Shown here: one piece after another, positions 21,597-49,037 of the stretch
How the letters are laid out: every line of letters begins with the position of its first letter
How positions within the stretch are numbered: the first letter of the stretch is position 1
DNA from: Pseudorhodoplanes sp.
Lineage (GTDB): Bacteria > Pseudomonadota > Alphaproteobacteria > Rhizobiales > Xanthobacteraceae
Length of the DNA: 64,000 nt
Direction of reading: 5' to 3'
Assembly (NCBI GenBank): GCA_032027085.1
Contig: JAVSMS010000001.1
Location: 4,441,730 to 4,505,729, forward strand
Position numbers and translations under genes: made by a program
Notes under the pieces: generated by a model
The model's input: the letters and a program-made list of their open reading frames with translations, nothing else
Database searches by the model: none
What the model was told of the DNA's origin: nothing

Positions 21597-21910
21597 TCCA
21601 ACCCTTTGACCCGCCCCCAAAGCCGAGGCATCCCCTCAAGAGAGTCGCTTCCACCAACCCCTAGCCGGGCTGTTAGCCCAGCGCTGTGGATAAGCAAAGC
21701 TCGGTTTTCCCTTGGATTCGCCGCAGGGAAAGCGGTCGCCGGTAGCCGGCTGCCTCCCGGTGCGCCGTTAACCTTAACAAGATATTAAAAAATACCGCGC
21801 CGTGCCCGATTTGTACTAGGAATCCCATGGGGCGGGCACAGCCAGAACAAGCCGGGCTTTCCGGCGCGGTTGTCGCGCAGTGACTTGTTGTGTCGGTTAG
21901 GGGGTTGAAC
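21597..21910. other. Divergent intergenic region with CtrA-type box
   Basis: 314 bases without a gene between the membrane-protein start and the crescentin-like start. The right half is AT-rich around GTTAACCTTAACAAGATATT and holds the perfect CtrA-type box. No other clear element was seen. Confidence 0.5.
21774..21788. promoter_or_regulatory. CtrA-type box upstream of crescentin-like gene
   Basis: A perfect TTAA-CAAGATA-TTAA, with an extra TTAACC half-site 7 bases before it. It lies 122 bases upstream of the ATG at 21911. Confidence 0.55.
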
Positions 21911-23443
21911 ATGAAGAGGCTTACGGGGTTATTTGGACGAACCGCACATTCCAACGGCAGCGCAAGTTCAGCGCTTGCAGATACGGCATCGCAGCCGCCG
22001 GTCACCATTCAATCGCCAATCGACGAAGCCGGCCTTGAGAATCTCGGCAGCCGCATCGGCGCCGCCAACGAAGGCTTGCGCGGACTGCTGATCGAAGCCT
22101 CCCGCAAATTCGAGGAACTCGACGCGCTGAAGTCGACATTCGGCAATATCGTCACCCCCGTCGGCGATATGCTGCGCGAACTCGAGCAGGAAAAGTCGCA
22201 GAACGCGAGTCTGCGCAATCTGCTGGCCGAAGTGCGATCCAACCTCGACGCATTGCGCGCCGAGCACGTCCAGACCGAAAAAGAGCGCGCCACGCTCAAG
22301 CAGGACAACACCCTGCTGCGGCAGGAAATCGGCGCCGTCCGTCAAGAAGCGCAAGCGCTGGATTCGGTGCGCGCGCAACTGGCCGACGAAGTCACGGCCC
22401 AGCACAGTCAGATCGTTCAGCTCGAGCGGCAACTCAGCGCCGAAACCACGCAGCATCGGGCGCTTGCGGACGCGCATCGGCAATTGACCGATGAAATTCA
22501 GGCCGCCGACAAGAAAGCGGTGCGTCTCGAGGCGGATATTCGCGGCCTGCAGGAAAAGCTCGTCCTGACAGACGAGGAGAGGCAGTCGCTGCAGACCTCG
22601 CTGGATCAGAGCATCGCAGACGCCTCGCGCGTGGCGCGCCGTCTGAGTGAAACGGAAACTCTTCTGGGCAACGCCCGCAGCAAGATCAGCGATCTGGAAG
22701 CGGCCGTCACCAATGGCGAAGCCGAACGCAATGCACTGCAGCTCCGCTTTGACGAGGCGAACGAGCAGCACCAGACTGAAACATCCGCCCTGTCAAACCG
22801 TCTGGGCTCGGTGCAGTCGCGCGCGGCGGCTTCGGAAAAACTGCTCGCCGAGGTGCGGCAGGCGCTTGCGGAGCGCACCGAGGAAAGCCGGGAATGGGAG
22901 CGCAAGGCAACGGAGGCAGAAACCGCGCGCATCACAACCGAAAAGAAGCTGCAACAGATCGAAGCCGACAACGAGGCTTTGGAGCAGCAGCTTGCCGAGC
23001 TGACCCAATCGCGCGCGACGCTGATGGAACGCTCCAGTGCAGTCAGCAAGACCTTGAAGCAGCGCGAAGCGGCGCTGGCCCGCGCCGAGGAAAAGAACGC
23101 CGCACTCGCCGAGCGCGTCAAGCAGCTTGAAAGCGATCACTACGTACTGCGCGAGGCCGACGAAAAGCGTCTGGCAGAACTCAATGCCACCCTCAGCCGC
23201 GAGCGCATGGCCCGCGCCGTCGCCGAAGGTGCACTGGCCTCCTCGCGCCGCGACTTCGCTCGTGTCCAGCAGGAAATCGCCAACATCAATACGCAAAAGA
23301 CAGTGAAAACGGCGCAAACTCCGGCAACGCTGGCAAAACGGGTCAAATCCAATTTTGGCAAGACCCCTGCCCCAACCAGCGAGCCTGCCTCGAAAAGCCG
23401 GAACCCCAAGAAGCCGGCCGAGGATCAAGTCGCGAAGAACTGA
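21911..23443 (+). CDS. Crescentin-like coiled-coil protein A
   Basis: 510 residues, ATG behind GGGGG. A short N-terminal head (MKRLTGLFGRT, then Ser/Ala-rich) leads into a motif NEGLRGLLIEASRKFEELD with TFGNIVTPVGDML. The rest, to about residue 470, is one long coiled coil rich in Glu, Gln, Ala and Arg, followed by a basic Lys/Pro tail. This head-rod-tail plan resembles intermediate-filament-like crescentin and related alphaproteobacterial scaffolds that set cell curvature or width. It is a clear paralogue of the protein at 26563 (NEx-LR-LLIEA-x-K-x-x-ELD and a shared RER-x4-AEGAL end). Function is inferred from architecture. Confidence 0.7.
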   Translation: MKRLTGLFGRTAHSNGSASSALADTASQPPVTIQSPIDEAGLENLGSRIGAANEGLRGLLIEASRKFEELDALKSTFGNIVTPVGDMLRELEQEKSQNASLRNLLAEVRSNLDALRAEHVQTEKERATLKQDNTLLRQEIGAVRQEAQALDSVRAQLADEVTAQHSQIVQLERQLSAETTQHRALADAHRQLTDEIQAADKKAVRLEADIRGLQEKLVLTDEERQSLQTSLDQSIADASRVARRLSETETLLGNARSKISDLEAAVTNGEAERNALQLRFDEANEQHQTETSALSNRLGSVQSRAAASEKLLAEVRQALAERTEESREWERKATEAETARITTEKKLQQIEADNEALEQQLAELTQSRATLMERSSAVSKTLKQREAALARAEEKNAALAERVKQLESDHYVLREADEKRLAELNATLSRERMARAVAEGALASSRRDFARVQQEIANINTQKTVKTAQTPATLAKRVKSNFGKTPAPTSEPASKSRNPKKPAEDQVAKN

Positions 23444-42709: not shown

Positions 42710-43030
42710 TCAGGCCTGACGCTCGGGCGTATGCACAACAAGGCCGTCGAGCTCGTCGCTGACCTTGATCTGGCAGGACAGCCGCGAATTCGGCCGCACG
42801 TCAAAGCCGAAATCCAGCATGTCCTCTTCCATCGGCGAGGGCCCGCCCACCTTCTCGCGCCAGGCTTCGTCGATGTAGACGTGGCAGGTTGCGCAGGCGC
42901 AGGCGCCGCCGCATTCGGCCTCGATGCCCGGAATGGAATTCTTGATCGCGTTTTCCATCACCGTCGAACCATTTTCGGCCTCGACGGAACGGCTCTGACC
43001 TTGAAAGTCGATATAAGTGATTTTTGCCAT
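42710..43030 (-). CDS. 2Fe-2S ferredoxin (adrenodoxin/ISC type)
   Basis: 106 residues. Cluster ligands C40, C46 and C49 in [11 protein letters not shown], with the fourth in RLSCQI (about residue 86). The pattern C-x5-C-x2-C is that of vertebrate-type ferredoxins, which serve P450s, iron-sulfur assembly or other monooxygenases. C44 is extra. No P450 is in the window. It is first in a two-gene unit with the ferredoxin reductase. No strong ribosome binding site is visible. Confidence 0.92.
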
Positions 43031-43120: not shown

Positions 43121-43516
43121 TTACCGAGACAATCGGTTCGCTTGCAGAAGATCGGCGATCACACGCCGCGCGTCTCCGATAGCAAGCGCGAGGCGGCTGA
43201 TGGAGCCGGAGAGATGAGCAGGATCGACGGCCTGTGCCGCTGTTTCAACGTCGAAGGCCGTCCGGGCGACCGACCAAGCGCCAATGCCGCGCGCCGAGCC
43301 TTTCAGCGTGTGTGCATAACCCGCGATGGCCGCCGGGCACGCGTCCTGCATCTTCACCAGCAGCATCTCGGCCTGGCGATCGAAAAGGCGCAGCACTTCG
43401 CGCTCGAGTTCGCGCTCGCCCAAGGTCATGCGCGACAGATGCTCGAGATCAATCGGCCGATCAACCGGCGACAGCGGCGGCGCAACAACGGGATCGACCA
43501 GCCCCATTTCGATCAT
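43121..43516 (-). CDS. Stand-alone Hpt (histidine phosphotransfer) protein
   Basis: 131 residues from the ATG at 43516 behind GGGAGG. The phosphorylatable His is H69 in AHTLKGSARGIG. Helices around it (EREVLRLFDRQAEMLLVKM and SVARTAFDVETAAQAV) form the Hpt bundle. Such proteins carry phosphate between hybrid kinases and response regulators. No kinase or regulator gene is adjacent, so its pathway is unknown; with CtrA-type sites nearby in the window a cell-cycle relay is a guess only. Confidence 0.88.
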   Translation of the reverse strand: MIEMGLVDPVVAPPLSPVDRPIDLEHLSRMTLGERELEREVLRLFDRQAEMLLVKMQDACPAAIAGYAHTLKGSARGIGAWSVARTAFDVETAAQAVDPAHLSGSISRLALAIGDARRVIADLLQANRLSR

Positions 43517-43726
43517 GGACAACCTCCCGGAGGCTCTCCGTCCTCCTTAGGAGCGCAGTTTGGCATCGGATCGACCAAAGCACGGTAAATACAAGGCCGC
43601 CTGTCCGGCTCCCCGTGCCGCTGGCTCCTGGCAAGGTTAAGAAAGTCTTGCCGGCCGGGCCGCTCCCCAAAAGCGGCACAGGGCTGCTAGGATAGATGAA
43701 GCAACCCACCCGCGGGGGACTGAAGC

Positions 43727-43984
43727 TTGCGCGACCTCTCCAATCTCATGATCTACACGGCGACCGACGGCCAAAGCTGGATCGCGGCGACCTCCTCTTC
43801 TCCGTTTTTCTGTCTGGAGGCCGGCTCCGAGCGCGAAGTGCTTGAGCTCGCCGCGCGCGCCCTGCGCTTCCACCAGGCGGCGGCGACGCGGGCGAGCCAG
43901 AACCAGGGGCGCGAACGGCAATTTCCGGGCTACACGATCCAGAACAGGGTCTCGGCGCGGGAACTGGCCATCGCGTATTGGTGA
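43727..43984 (+). CDS. Small uncharacterised protein, first of a coupled pair
   Basis: 85 residues if it starts with the TTG at 43727, which follows GGGGGA at 9 bases; an ATG at 43748 gives 78. The protein starts with MIYTATDGQSWIAATSS and has a helix EREVLELAARALRFHQ, then a basic stretch and IQNRVSARELAIAYW. I do not recognise it. The stop overlaps the next ATG (TGATG), so the two are translated together. Confidence 0.6.
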   Translation: MRDLSNLMIYTATDGQSWIAATSSSPFFCLEAGSEREVLELAARALRFHQAAATRASQNQGRERQFPGYTIQNRVSARELAIAYW

Positions 43985-44211
43985 TGGCGTCCTATTACGT
44001 CGAGATCCAGGGAATCTACGAGGAATTCCTGGAGTTTTCCGGTTATGTCCTGGTTGACGAGGACGCTGAATTCCAGCTTTTCGTCAAGAACGGTCAGGAA
44101 TATATCCTGCCGAAAAGCGGGCTTCGCTTCCTGCCGGTGGAAGCCAACGACGGCGACATGCGGCGTTCCCGACGCCGGGCCGTCCCAATTCCGCGTCCTG
44201 AGCGGGTCTAA
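43984..44211 (+). CDS. Small uncharacterised protein, second of a coupled pair
   Basis: 75 residues, ATG overlapping the previous stop. It is acidic and Tyr/Phe-rich at the start (YYVEIQGIYEEFLEFSGYV), then beta-like (AEFQLFVKNGQEYILP), with a basic tail (MRRSRRRAVPIP). No family recognised. The coupled two-gene layout resembles a toxin-antitoxin or small regulatory pair, but neither chain shows the motifs of a named system. Confidence 0.6.
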   Translation: MASYYVEIQGIYEEFLEFSGYVLVDEDAEFQLFVKNGQEYILPKSGLRFLPVEANDGDMRRSRRRAVPIPRPERV

Positions 44212-44278
44212 GCTACCAAGCACCGAACTACCTAAATACCGTTCCGCGACTGACTTTCTCCACGGCGGTTAACGATGA

Positions 44279-44293
44279 TTAAAACGAGCTTAA
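44279..44293. promoter_or_regulatory. CtrA-type box upstream of the giant helical gene
   Basis: A perfect TTAA-AACGAGC-TTAA followed by C, with a further TTAAC half-site 6 bases before it. It lies 181 bases upstream of the ATG at 44475. Confidence 0.6.
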
Positions 44294-44474
44294 CGCGCGC
44301 AGTTTTCATCGATATTGCCAGCGGATAGGATGTACGGCCCGTTGATGGATTTTGGCGGGCGATCTGATTGACGAAATTCACGGGGGCACCTGACAGCGCG
44401 CTGAATGCGGCCGATCTTGTTTGCGCGTGCGGTCTGCGGTCCTGGACATTTTGTAAAGTGAGGCGGCGAAGGAC

Positions 44475-47400
44475 ATGGCGAACACACCCAGGAAGGCCAA
44501 GGACCCGACCGAAGCGGCAATGGCAGCGATCCAGGACGCCTTGAAAGTCCGCGACGCCGTCGAAGCCAAATCGAAACCGGCGGCTGTGGCACCGCGTGCG
44601 GGGACTCCCGCCACCGTCCCGCCAGCCCCGCCAGTGGCTGCCTCGCCTGCCATGCGTGCCACGGCCTCGTCGAAGCCCGCCGAGGACGAATTGTTCGATG
44701 CGCCCCGCGCCCCAACGAGCGAGCCGGGACGTCCGGCCAATGACGACTGGAAGCCGGTCGGTGAATTGCTGCAATCCATGCAGCCGCGCGCCGCGCGCAA
44801 CACCTATATGATTGCCGGCATCGGCTCGGCCGTGTGGTGCGCCGCCGCGGCCCTGTTTCTGTCCCAGTACATGCCCGACCTGCGGGCCAATTTCGGACCC
44901 GCGATCTTCTCGCTGGCCGCCATCTTCATCCTGCCGGTGTCGCTGTTTTTCGTGCTCGCCAACATGGTCAACCGCTCGCGCGAAATGCGCCATATCGCGC
45001 AATCGATGGCGGAAGTCGCCATGCGCCTCGCCGAGCCGGAAACGGTCGCACGCGAATCCATCGTCACCGTCGGCCAGGCCATTCGCCGCGAAGTCGCGGC
45101 TATGGGCGACGGCGTCGAACGCGTGCTCGCGCGCGCGGCTGAACTGGAATCCATGGTGCAGAACGAAGTATCTGCGCTGGAACGCGCCTATAGCGACAAC
45201 GAGGCGCGCATCCGCGGGCTGCTCGATGATCTTGCCCGCCAGCGCGACAATCTGGTCGGGCAGGCCGAGCAGGTGCGGGACGCCATTGCCGGCGTGCACC
45301 TGAACCTCAACCAGGACATTACCGGCATCGCGGAAAATGTCGCTCAGCAGGTGGCCCACGCCGCGCAGCAGATCACCGGCAATTTGTCCGACAAGGGTGA
45401 GCACATCACCCTTGCGCTCGGACGCGCCGGCGACACCATGATGGACGCACTGGGCGAGCGCGGCGGCGACCTGCTGCAGCGGCTCGAGCGCACCAGCCTC
45501 GAAACCACCGCCTCGATCGCCGAGGTCACCAACCGCCTCAACTCGTTGCTCGAAACCGCCTCGGTGCGGACAACCTCATCAATCGCCGAGATCGCGGAAC
45601 GCCTCAATGCGACCATCGAGGCCGCTTCAGCGCAGTCGACCACGGCCATCGCCGACGCCGCCGGCCGCCTGAATGAATCGATGGACAATGCATCAGCGCA
45701 GCTCACGGCGAACCTGAACTTCAAGGCCGATCACATCGCCGAGGAGTTCGACGTGCTGTCGTCGAACCTCGCAGAGATGATGCAGTTGCGCCTGGCCAAT
45801 GTAACCAACGACTTCTCGCAGCGTTCCAAGACGATCGTCGACATCATGTCGGAGCGCGCCGAAGAGATCACGCTGAATTTCATGGAGAAGTCGGAGCGCA
45901 TCGGAAATGTGCTGATTGAAAAGTCCGAGCAGCTCACCACGGGGCTCTCCGAACACAGTGAGCGCCTGACCACCAACCTGACAGAGCATTCGGAACAGGT
46001 CACCAGCACGCTGTCCGAGCGCACGGAGCAGATCACTGTGAACATGATCGAGCGCTCGCAGCAGATCACGGAGGGGCTGATCGACCTCTCGAGCCGCGCG
46101 GCGGAAACCATTGCCACCCGCGGCGAGGAGGTCAATTCGACCATCAAGTCGACCGGCGACTCGCTGGTGCTTGATCTCAGCCTGCGCGGTGAGGATTTCG
46201 CCAATAAGATCGAGCAAACATCCAAGACCATCCACGAGACGATCGAAAGCCGACTGCAATCCTTCGAGGAAATCTTTGCGCATAACGGCGCCCAGCTCGC
46301 GGAAAAGGTTGGCAACGAATCCGCGACCCTTGGCAATCTGATCACCCGTCATCTCGGCGAATTCGATCGTACCGTCAAAACCTATGGTGGCGAACTGGTC
46401 GAGCGCATCGGTGAGCGAACCGACAAGATCACGACTGCGATGGAGGCACATATCGACAATTTCGATGGCCGCCTCTCCGCCAAGACCGAAGAATTTGCGG
46501 GCACGCTGCAGCAGCGCCTCGACCGTTTCGGCGAGGCGCTCGACGGGCGCACGCAGTCGCTGAATGAGGCCCTGGCCGGCCGCATCACCGACGTGGCGAA
46601 GACGGTCGCCGAAAGCGGCAAGGAAATCGTGTCCTCGATCAGCACACGTTCGGCGGAAATCACCACCGAACTGGAAGGCCGCCTCACTCGCTTCGAGGAG
46701 TTGTTGCTCGGCCGCACCACCGACGTGGCGCAGGAAATCGAGAATCGCGGCAAGGCGGCGGCAGACGCGATCAGCGCCTCGACCGACCACCTGCGCAATT
46801 CGACCCAGGATCTCGAGCGGATGCTGACCAGCGCCACGGCTAGCGCCACCGAGACGCTCAATGCCACCAGCACGACGATCGCTAACACATTGAACGAAAC
46901 GGCGGTCAGTACCAATGCCAAGCTCATTGAAGCGGCCAGGGTGACCAATGCCACGCTCGAGGAAGCATCTGCGAATGCGGGCAGCAAGGTGACCGAGGCG
47001 GCAACCAATGCCGCGGCATCACTGAGCAGCACCGGCACCGACATCAGCAATGTGCTGTCCAGCGCTTCGGCGGGCATCAGCAATGCGTTGAAGCAGAATG
47101 CTACTGATGTCGAACGTACCCTGCTCTCGGCCGCGGCCGAACTGACGCGCGTGTTCAACATCAATTCCTCGCCGCTCCTCGAATCGCTGTCGGGCAAGGC
47201 GCAGGCCTTCTCCTCTGAGATTGACCGCGCCGCCGGCGAAGCCGTCAAGGCGATCGAAAGCAAGGGCTTCGATTTCACCCGCGCCATGCTGGACAATTCC
47301 GGCGAATTGGCCCGCCTTATCAACGAGGCCGGCGAGAACGCCACCGGCCGGGTCAACGACACCTTCAACAATCTGCAGAACGCGGCACAGGCTGCGATCA

Positions 47401-49037
47401 ATCACTCGCAGCAAGCCGCGTCAGCCGCCGTGGCTGACATGATGGATGTCCACAACAAGCTGCGGAACGAATCGACCGGACTTTTCGAGCGTCTGCGCGA
47501 AGCCAACCTGCTCCTGCAGGAGGTGCTGACCGGGGCGCATGAGAACATGAGTTCGCTGGAGGGATCGCTCACCACGCGGCTCAACGAGTTCTCGACCGTG
47601 GTCAACGACATCACGGCGCGCACTGGTGCTGCGACCGACAGCGTGCATGTGCATCTTGACGCCTTCCGCAGCGAGACCGCACGCGTCCTGGAAAACCTGT
47701 CTGAGCTTGCCACGCAGTTCGATTCACATGGCCGGGTTCTGGTCGATGCCGTCGATCTCATCGACAAGAGCAACCGCCGCACCGAGGAAACCATGGGCGA
47801 GCGCAAGGCTGTGCTTGACACCCTGGTTACGACGCTGGACATGAAGACCGAGGATCTCGACCAGCGCCTTACCCGCTTCGCCTCGCTGCTCGACGAATCC
47901 ATGGAAGGCGCGGCCTCCCGGGCGCGCGAAATCGGCCGCATGATCGCGGAAACAAGTTCGCAGGGCAGCCAGACCATCTCCGAACAATTCGAGATGGTGC
48001 GGCAGAACACCGACGAAGAGCGCGCCCGCACGATCGAGAGCATGCGTGCCATCTACGAGCAGGCGACAGGTGACGCGCATGCCATGCTGCGCGACAGCAC
48101 GGAGCGTTTCGCCGAATTGCTGCAGAACATGCGCGACATGACGAATGAAATGCAGCGCGAAATGGATCAGACTCGCAACGAGCTGCGCCGCGGCATCCTC
48201 GAATTGCCGCAGGAAACCGCTGAGAACGCCGCGCAGATGCGCCGCGTGATCGTGGACCAGATTGAGGCGCTGGCGGAGCTCAACCGCATCGTGGCGCGCC
48301 ATGGCCGCAACGTCGAAATCGCCGCAGAGGCCCGCCGCGGCAGTGAGCCTGTCCTTGCAGTGGTGGGCGGACGCAACGAGGCGCCGGTCCGTCCGACCCG
48401 CGCGGCCGATCTGCCGCCGGCCCCGCCTTCCATTCCGCTGGCGGATGCTCCTCTTGCTCCCGCACCGGCGGCGCGCCGCACCGACGTGCCGCCACACGCA
48501 CCGGCCGCGCCCGCTCAGAACGCTCCGGGCGGCGGCTGGTTGTCTGACCTGCTGCACCGCGCGGGGGACGACGAACAACCGCAGGCTCGCGAGCGCGTGC
48601 CGGCTCCCCCGGCCCCGCGTGGCCGCGCGCCGGAACGCGCGCCCGAGCGTCCACACATGCATGCCCGAGCAGATGAGCGCATGCAGCGTGTCTCGATCGA
48701 GTCGCTCGATGCGCTCTCCGTCGATATCGCGCGGATGATCGACCACAACGCCGCGGTGCAGATGTGGGACCGCTACAATCGCGGCGATCGCACGGCTTTC
48801 GGGCGGCACCTCTATACACCGCACGGCCAGCGCGCCTTCGATGACATCCGCGCCCGCTATCGCGGCAACCGCGATTTCCGCGGAACAGTGGACCGCTACA
48901 TCGCCGAGTTTGAGCGCCTGCTCGACGAAGTCTCGCGCGACGAACGCGGCGGCCAGCAGATGGTCCGGACCTACCTGACCTCGGAAACCGGCAAGGTCTA
49001 CACCATGCTGGCGCACGCGTCGGGCCGCTTCGACTAA
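44475..49037 (+). CDS. Giant membrane-anchored helical protein, growth-pole-ring (GPR/RgsE)-like
   Basis: 1520 residues, ATG behind GAAGGAC. A cytoplasmic Ala/Pro-rich head (1-108) is followed by two membrane helices at about 111-131 and 141-164. About 1200 residues of continuous helix come next, with 22- and 11-residue repeats of the apolipoprotein kind, then a Pro-rich linker (1310-1390) and a folded C-terminal domain (about 1395-1520, ESLDALSVDIARMIDHNAAVQ). Agrobacterium GPR (about 2100 residues) and Sinorhizobium RgsE share this plan and form a ring needed for polar growth. The similarity is by architecture, recalled rather than aligned. A perfect CtrA-type box lies upstream and a strong terminator downstream. 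Confidence 0.6.
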   Translation: MANTPRKAKDPTEAAMAAIQDALKVRDAVEAKSKPAAVAPRAGTPATVPPAPPVAASPAMRATASSKPAEDELFDAPRAPTSEPGRPANDDWKPVGELLQSMQPRAARNTYMIAGIGSAVWCAAAALFLSQYMPDLRANFGPAIFSLAAIFILPVSLFFVLANMVNRSREMRHIAQSMAEVAMRLAEPETVARESIVTVGQAIRREVAAMGDGVERVLARAAELESMVQNEVSALERAYSDNEARIRGLLDDLARQRDNLVGQAEQVRDAIAGVHLNLNQDITGIAENVAQQVAHAAQQITGNLSDKGEHITLALGRAGDTMMDALGERGGDLLQRLERTSLETTASIAEVTNRLNSLLETASVRTTSSIAEIAERLNATIEAASAQSTTAIADAAGRLNESMDNASAQLTANLNFKADHIAEEFDVLSSNLAEMMQLRLANVTNDFSQRSKTIVDIMSERAEEITLNFMEKSERIGNVLIEKSEQLTTGLSEHSERLTTNLTEHSEQVTSTLSERTEQITVNMIERSQQITEGLIDLSSRAAETIATRGEEVNSTIKSTGDSLVLDLSLRGEDFANKIEQTSKTIHETIESRLQSFEEIFAHNGAQLAEKVGNESATLGNLITRHLGEFDRTVKTYGGELVERIGERTDKITTAMEAHIDNFDGRLSAKTEEFAGTLQQRLDRFGEALDGRTQSLNEALAGRITDVAKTVAESGKEIVSSISTRSAEITTELEGRLTRFEELLLGRTTDVAQEIENRGKAAADAISASTDHLRNSTQDLERMLTSATASATETLNATSTTIANTLNETAVSTNAKLIEAARVTNATLEEASANAGSKVTEAATNAAASLSSTGTDISNVLSSASAGISNALKQNATDVERTLLSAAAELTRVFNINSSPLLESLSGKAQAFSSEIDRAAGEAVKAIESKGFDFTRAMLDNSGELARLINEAGENATGRVNDTFNNLQNAAQAAINHSQQAASAAVADMMDVHNKLRNESTGLFERLREANLLLQEVLTGAHENMSSLEGSLTTRLNEFSTVVNDITARTGAATDSVHVHLDAFRSETARVLENLSELATQFDSHGRVLVDAVDLIDKSNRRTEETMGERKAVLDTLVTTLDMKTEDLDQRLTRFASLLDESMEGAASRAREIGRMIAETSSQGSQTISEQFEMVRQNTDEERARTIESMRAIYEQATGDAHAMLRDSTERFAELLQNMRDMTNEMQREMDQTRNELRRGILELPQETAENAAQMRRVIVDQIEALAELNRIVARHGRNVEIAAEARRGSEPVLAVVGGRNEAPVRPTRAADLPPAPPSIPLADAPLAPAPAARRTDVPPHAPAAPAQNAPGGGWLSDLLHRAGDDEQPQARERVPAPPAPRGRAPERAPERPHMHARADERMQRVSIESLDALSVDIARMIDHNAAVQMWDRYNRGDRTAFGRHLYTPHGQRAFDDIRARYRGNRDFRGTVDRYIAEFERLLDEVSRDERGGQQMVRTYLTSETGKVYTMLAHASGRFD
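45489..45686 (+). repeat. Three 22-residue repeats in the giant protein
   Basis: Three consecutive units, approximate position: TTASIAEVTNRLNSLLETAS, TTSSIAEIAERLNATIEAAS and STTAIADAAGRLNESMDNAS, each with two further residues. The 22-residue period (2 x 11) is that of apolipoprotein-like amphipathic helices. Confidence 0.7.
45849..46079 (+). repeat. Seven tandem 11-residue repeats in the giant protein
   Basis: Residues 459-535 are seven in-register units: SERAEEITLNF, MEKSERIGNVL, IEKSEQLTTGL, SEHSERLTTNL, TEHSEQVTSTL, SERTEQITVNM and IERSQQITEGL. The E-x-S-E-(R/Q)-(I/L/V)-T core is regular. Hendecad repeats give a straight or slightly right-handed coiled coil. Confidence 0.9.

Follow-up and report, generated by a model that had tools for sequence, protein, structure and literature searches.

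In Agrobacterium tumefaciens, the growth pole ring protein GPR is a polypeptide of 2,115 amino acids with two N-terminal membrane helices, an apolipoprotein-like helical rod, a Pro-rich stretch and an essential C-terminus, known from its ring at the growing pole and from the round cells that its depletion produces (PMC8262873). Its counterpart in Sinorhizobium meliloti, RgsE (SMc00190), has 2,089 amino acids; homologues of RgsE are reported in all Rhizobiales families, and distant ones in Emcibacterales and Rhodospirillales (PMC7327166). A CtrA-type promoter in front of the scaffold gene would bear on how the MreB-less Rhizobiales switch polar growth on at the right time. The CtrA consensus is TTAA-N7-TTAAC (PMC7200025). 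Caulobacter sites with another spacing are reported to bind CtrA weakly, and one verified S. meliloti CtrA site is spaced by 6 nt, the motif search in that study having been confined to 7 nt (PMC3616915). A CtrA-depletion strain exists for S. meliloti Rm1021 (PMC4433202).

We describe here a gpr/rgsE orthologue in a 64-kb stretch of Pseudorhodoplanes sp. DNA (hereafter the window). The family to which it belongs has been described before, and the gene itself is an unremarkable member. The newer part, and the interesting one, is its promoter.

Results

A GPR/RgsE-type protein with an 11-residue-repeat rod

The gene (44475..49037, + strand; ORF call and homology) encodes 1520 amino acids from an ATG start. 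A Kyte-Doolittle scan places two membrane helices at aa 110-131 (44802..44867) and aa 138-168 (44886..44978). These are followed on the same strand by a helical rod at aa 189-1244 (45039..48206), a Pro-rich linker at aa 1292-1393 (48348..48653) and a conserved C-terminal domain at about aa 1405-1520 (48687..49034), which is predicted to be all-helical and has no Pfam model. The initial annotation had described a 1520-codon gene with this same succession of parts, and the open reading frame and the hydropathy and proline scans agree with it; the long repetitive helix is likewise there, at 1,050-1,100 residues rather than the 1200 then given.

Between aa 188 and 1245 the product contains a single proline (aa 900). 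Hydrophobic residues of the rod recur with a period of 3.66, at a power 158 times the median, and the self-identity of the rod is highest when it is shifted by 11, 22 or 44 residues. Thus, the repeat is one of 11 residues, a hendecad, and not a heptad. If it formed one extended helix, the rod of ~1,055 residues would measure ~155 nm, by arithmetic at 0.15 nm per residue. Pfam family PF01442 matches the product with 126.6 bits (cut-off 90); at E <= 0.001 it matches no other frame in the genome, and every single stretch of the match is below the cut-off. NCBIfam matches to the anti-phage protein ZorA were weak (25.9 bits against a cut-off of 190; 72 bits for the S. meliloti relative) and were set aside as coiled-coil similarity. 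For the C-terminal domain, AlphaFold returned a model of six helices with a mean pLDDT of 70.5. The best match of this domain had an E of 1.5 among PDB folds and of 0.18 among PDB sequences, and no Pfam family matched; beyond its being predicted as helical, nothing was learned about its fold.

Orthology, length and gene neighbourhood

Across the order, the last 146 residues were matched in 190 of 199 genomes (that of the window among them), as a single copy in each matched genome except one with two (G002). Within family f24 (hereafter the family), 99 of the 101 genomes have a match, one of them (G275) with a second, short one. The membrane-proximal 186 residues were matched in 156 of 160 genomes of the order, including all 139 with at least 90% completeness and at most 5% contamination. 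Named genomes were scanned with a query profile led by a sequence of family f24. The best 80 of 565 relatives, on which all counts of named loci below are based, are by title mostly Rhizobiaceae, some being titled just "Rhizobiales bacterium", and include several Agrobacterium species and S. meliloti 4H41, whose protein has 2094 aa against the 2,089 aa reported for RgsE. BLASTP comparisons with six named proteins from Sinorhizobium, Agrobacterium and Rhizobium gave 43-48% identity over the N part and 51-57% over the C part, whether or not low-complexity segments were masked, and in the reciprocal search with the S. meliloti C part gpr was the sole match in the genome.

Divergently from gpr, on the - strand, lie genes for an Hpt-domain protein (43121..43522) and a 2Fe-2S ferredoxin (Fer2; 42710..43030), both assigned by Pfam. 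Counted on the strand opposite to gpr, they are found in 76 and 77, respectively, of the best 80 named loci; their position directly upstream was confirmed in six printed loci and, for hpt, in 64 measured loci. S. meliloti 4H41 combines homologous N (46%) and C (52-57%) parts with ferredoxin and Hpt neighbours, and A. pusense likewise has homologous N and C parts and the same neighbours. Two small + strand ORFs, putatively coding, separate hpt from the promoter boxes in the window. An ORF of 75 aa (43984-44211, + strand) between hpt and the gpr promoter has no Pfam match and is absent from the best 80 named loci.

Because both the N and the C part match, usually in single copy, and because ferredoxin and Hpt neighbours are common, we regard it as certain from these sequence comparisons that the gene is the GPR/RgsE orthologue. 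A GPR/RgsE homologue is what had been proposed initially, and the similarity now found in both the C-terminal domain and the membrane region, together with the reciprocal search with the C-terminal domain, upholds that proposal. The accompanying idea of a lineage with a shorter version holds up less well. Three other genomes of the same genus have open frames of 1450, 1232 and 1855, and frames range from ~1,140 to 2,690 across the family, where still shorter ones may be cut at contig ends. The length of gpr is therefore labile, and 1520 residues, as against 2,115 in GPR and 2,089 in RgsE, are weak grounds for setting a lineage apart.

Overlapping TTAA boxes upstream of gpr

The TTAA-N7-TTAA pair on which the initial annotation based its proposal of CtrA control is exact (44279..44293) and lies 181 bp before the gpr ATG, with its downstream TTAA at 44290-44293. 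Absent from that annotation is a further TTAA at 44269, which brings the half-sites to three and creates a TTAA-N6-TTAA box overlapping the N7 pair. This core box, TTAACGATGATTAA (44269..44282, + strand), is a putative CtrA site located 206 bp before the ATG and ~750 bp from hpt. It is followed on the + strand by a putative -35-like hexamer, TTTTCA (44303..44308), a poor match of the kind expected in activator-dependent promoters, and by a -10-like hexamer, TAGGAT (44326..44331), which is spaced 17 nt from the former and 43 nt from the box; the transcript would be predicted to begin at about 44338.

Family loci were drawn from 97 family matches, 7 of them outside the fetched set. Eight loci with no tblastn hit were left out of the N6 and N7 counts (L127 lacks its 5' end), and a rescan of 7 left-out family loci found the box in 1. 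The search covered 500 bp upstream in 83 family and 79 named loci. It found the N6 box in 64 loci of either set and the N7 box in 36 and 26, respectively; the 14-mer TTAACGATGATTAA itself is exact in 56 of the 83 family loci. When both sets were pooled (162 upstream regions), spacing 6 was counted 128 times, spacing 7 62 times and TTAA-N8-TTAA not at all; the AATT controls gave 1 at N6 (AATT-N6-AATT) and 2 at spacing 7. Counts were also raised at spacings 15-17 (15, 26 and 42), probably through the outer half-sites. Thus, the best-conserved box is TTAACGATGATTAA with its N6 spacing, and not the N7 pair at 44279-44293, whose completing half-site is often TTAC instead of TTAA in other loci.

What surrounds the box is conserved as well. 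Of the 64 boxed family loci, 59 have a third TTA at N6/7 and 56 have TAGGAT 30-60 nt downstream, in 49 cases separated from the box by 42 or 43 nt. An alignment of 63 boxed loci shows conservation of the same block, with a TTTCAT -35-like hexamer 17 nt before TAGGAT, and the inner CGATGA of the box is nearly invariant within the family. The N6 box is missing in 19 of the 83 family loci; in 20 family loci without it, TTAACGAT still falls in columns that are at least 95% conserved.

We then turned to 65 loci representing 35 other families, picked across families from 160 genomes of the order. A perfect N7 box is present in 13, a perfect N6 box in 4 and either in 14 (10 of the 35 families), leaving 51 with neither; an order-wide perfect box, which had been expected, is refuted by these numbers. 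With at most one mismatch, TTAAC-N6-TTAA (a half-site spacing of 7) was found in 28 of the 65. Dinucleotide shuffling, with 10 runs per spacing, gave a mean of 1.2 and a maximum of 2 here; the reversed pattern reached 4, and counts at the remaining spacings from 3 to 11 were 2-12. At the same tolerance, the N6 box reached 12, not far above the 7 of its reversed control, and spacings 3 and 9 gave 12 and 10 against 2.8 and 2.9 in shuffles; the excess at spacings such as 3 and 9 probably stems from common single TTAAC half-sites. N7 is thus the commonest spacing in other families, and its count with at most one mismatch is the only one clearly exceeding all controls. Outside the order, a perfect N7 box stands upstream in 1 of 20 relatives. 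Together, these results indicate a box that is common to several families yet decaying.

The complete genome (4.97 Mb) holds 23 N7 and 9 N6 sites, against 33 and 36 for the reversed patterns, and by count neither motif is over-represented; one of the 9 N6 sites is TTAACGATGATTAA. Judged informally from these site counts, chance seems unlikely to place two overlapping boxes in a single promoter. It is because of its conservation upstream of orthologues, and not because of any genome count, that we take the box to be more than a chance occurrence.

CtrA and its candidate sites in the genome

CtrA is encoded in the genome (G000:C1:684023-684628; 424 bits to NF045991, cut-off 350), with a one-mismatch box upstream of ctrA itself. 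By mechanical ORF calls, 20 of the 23 N7 sites are intergenic. With Pfam on 20 of the 36 flanking proteins, eleven sites were found to adjoin FlgI/FliX, flagellin, CheA, an MCP, FliO, a DUF1153 protein that we take to be SciP, a sigma-70 factor, a DivIC-family protein, a class A PBP, a crescentin-like protein and gpr; the boxes beside the class A PBP, the DivIC-family protein and the sigma-70 factor are at L179 2006, L185 2044 and L171 2029. Other named neighbours are outer-membrane proteins, a NUDIX protein, an M3 peptidase, a DUF1465 protein and a phage terminase. Four of the 23 sites fall within the window (3435, 8014, 21774 and 44279), two of them inside a flagellar cluster (FlgI/FliX and flagellin).

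The half-sites upstream of gpr are of the TTAA-N7-TTAAC type described for CtrA-dependent promoters (PMC7200025, PMC3616915, PMC4433202). Those promoters have N7 spacing (PMC7200025), whereas the best-conserved pair here has N6 spacing and an invariant inner sequence. With a TTAA-N7-TTAA(C) box near the -35, conserved upstream of orthologues, and CtrA present in the genome, a link to CtrA is likely, and both the conservation of the box and the genome context give good reason to propose control of gpr by CtrA. The direct tie between polar growth and the cell-cycle master regulator that was first read from the N7 pair would follow from such control. SMc00190 goes unmentioned in the main text of the CtrA paper on S. 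meliloti. Where a motif search was limited to 7 nt (PMC3616915), this limit could account for an absence of RgsE from the list, if it is absent. In the literature passages covered, we found no statement of CtrA control of GPR, RgsE or SMc00190.

Relatives outside the order

A profile of the C-terminal domain matched 141 of 385 genomes sampled class-wide; of these 141, 5 belong to the order. When 20 relatives outside the order were viewed whole, all had the C-terminal domain; N-terminal hydrophobic segments numbered at least two in 16, with one long segment in 2, a single short one in 1 and none in 1, and the membrane-proximal part matched (E < 0.001) in 8. Rod periods were 3.65-3.67 in 79 of the best 80 named order members (the 80th is incomplete) and 3.53-3.62 in the 20 outside. 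The uniform 11-residue rod, its period taken from the window and the 79 named proteins, and the CtrA-type box look like traits of the order. A search of the genome for MreB gave two partial matches over the cut-off, in frames of 670 and 467 aa, which by their length we read as other actin-fold proteins. We therefore see no convincing MreB in the genome, in keeping with growth at a pole.

Discussion

We consider it probable that the gene makes a GPR/RgsE scaffold that organises polar growth, under an old CtrA-type promoter. The membrane hairpin would anchor the scaffold in the inner membrane, from which the straight rod of 11-residue repeats would reach into the cytoplasm and end in the conserved helical domain. 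Judging from its counterparts in Agrobacterium and Sinorhizobium, the scaffold would assemble at the growing pole and organise wall synthesis there. CtrA, binding to TTAACGATGATTAA-N7-TTAAC just upstream of the weak -35, would turn on a promoter whose -10 is TAGGAT, and the scaffold would thus be produced in a defined window of the cell cycle. Pole localisation, CtrA occupancy, activation and timing are what we infer from the plan, the orthology and the promoter geometry. The conserved CtrA-type promoter before a growth-ring scaffold would then connect the cell-cycle regulator with the growth machinery by a specific link that is easy to test.

Could the rod bind lipids instead, as an apolipoprotein does? 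The PF01442 match above cut-off speaks for such a role, which we nevertheless hold to be unlikely: of four rod stretches profiled, three are strongly hydrophobic at only two of the 11 positions (the fourth, aa 1101-1240, shows no clear register), and so narrow a stripe would fit a hendecad coiled coil, and hence a structural rod, better. Another reading concerns the role of the whole protein. TipN of Caulobacter is a membrane-anchored helical pole scaffold. The present protein can be likened to it by plan only, and a similarity of GPR to TipN has been noted (PMC8546619). That the protein of Pseudorhodoplanes sp. is a general polarity scaffold of this sort, rather than a dedicated growth ring, would suit the spread of its C-terminal domain through 141 of 385 class genomes and the two or more N-terminal segments in 16 of the 20 relatives outside the order. 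It is made improbable by the distinct rod of the order, by the lack of a convincing MreB and by the membrane-proximal match in just 8 of those 20.

The promoter, too, can be read in other ways. The gene may be GPR and its box be read by a different regulator, of the OmpR family or one recognising AT-rich sites, with CtrA a weak or occasional binder. The N6 spacing of the core, an inner CGATGA conserved beyond what CtrA would need and the occurrence of the 14-mer only once among the genome's own N6 sites all point that way; the prevalence of N7 in other families, the TTAAC half-sites shared with CtrA boxes and the further N7 sites flanking flagellar and cell-cycle genes point back to CtrA and leave another regulator with little likelihood. 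One candidate for that role, CenR, has the motif TGA-N8-TGA (PMC9275681), which, read by eye, is absent from 44269-44340. Alternatively, the box might be the promoter of the divergent hpt and not of gpr. In 64 named loci its median distances to the estimated hpt start and to the gpr ATG are indeed 126 bp and 356 bp, respectively, and in S. meliloti 4H41 the N6 box, at -379, is nearer hpt than it is in the window. In the window, however, the two small ORFs intervene and the box is much the closer to gpr (206 bp against ~750 bp), and a TAGGAT -10 at a fixed distance points toward gpr, which makes this reading very unlikely for the present locus; among the named loci, most of which are from Rhizobiaceae, it may act for hpt or for both genes.

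Beyond a CtrA-driven growth scaffold at this locus, we offer a more tentative proposal, which we would call possible but doubtful. GPR may derive from a class-wide alphaproteobacterial scaffold made of a membrane hairpin, a helical rod and the unnamed C-terminal domain, with the uniform 11-residue rod and the CtrA-driven promoter gained at the base of the Rhizobiales-type order. CtrA control would then be an ancestral wire that links outgrowth of the new pole with the cell cycle and that motif lists have overlooked because its best box is spaced by 6 nt, and rod length, which varies severalfold between species, might set the size of the ring. A possible origin of the scaffold is indicated by its C-terminal domain, which is class-wide and has no Pfam model.

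Two further observations were made in passing. The extended helix of 1,700 aa is given as 600 nm in PMC8262873; at 0.15 nm per residue it would come to ~255 nm, near the reported 200-nm ring. Finally, the window contains a gene for a crescentin-type rod (21774-23440; 517 aa; PF19220, 194.5 bits, cut-off 100) with a perfect TTAA-N7-TTAA 101 bp upstream, possibly a second CtrA-linked shape scaffold.
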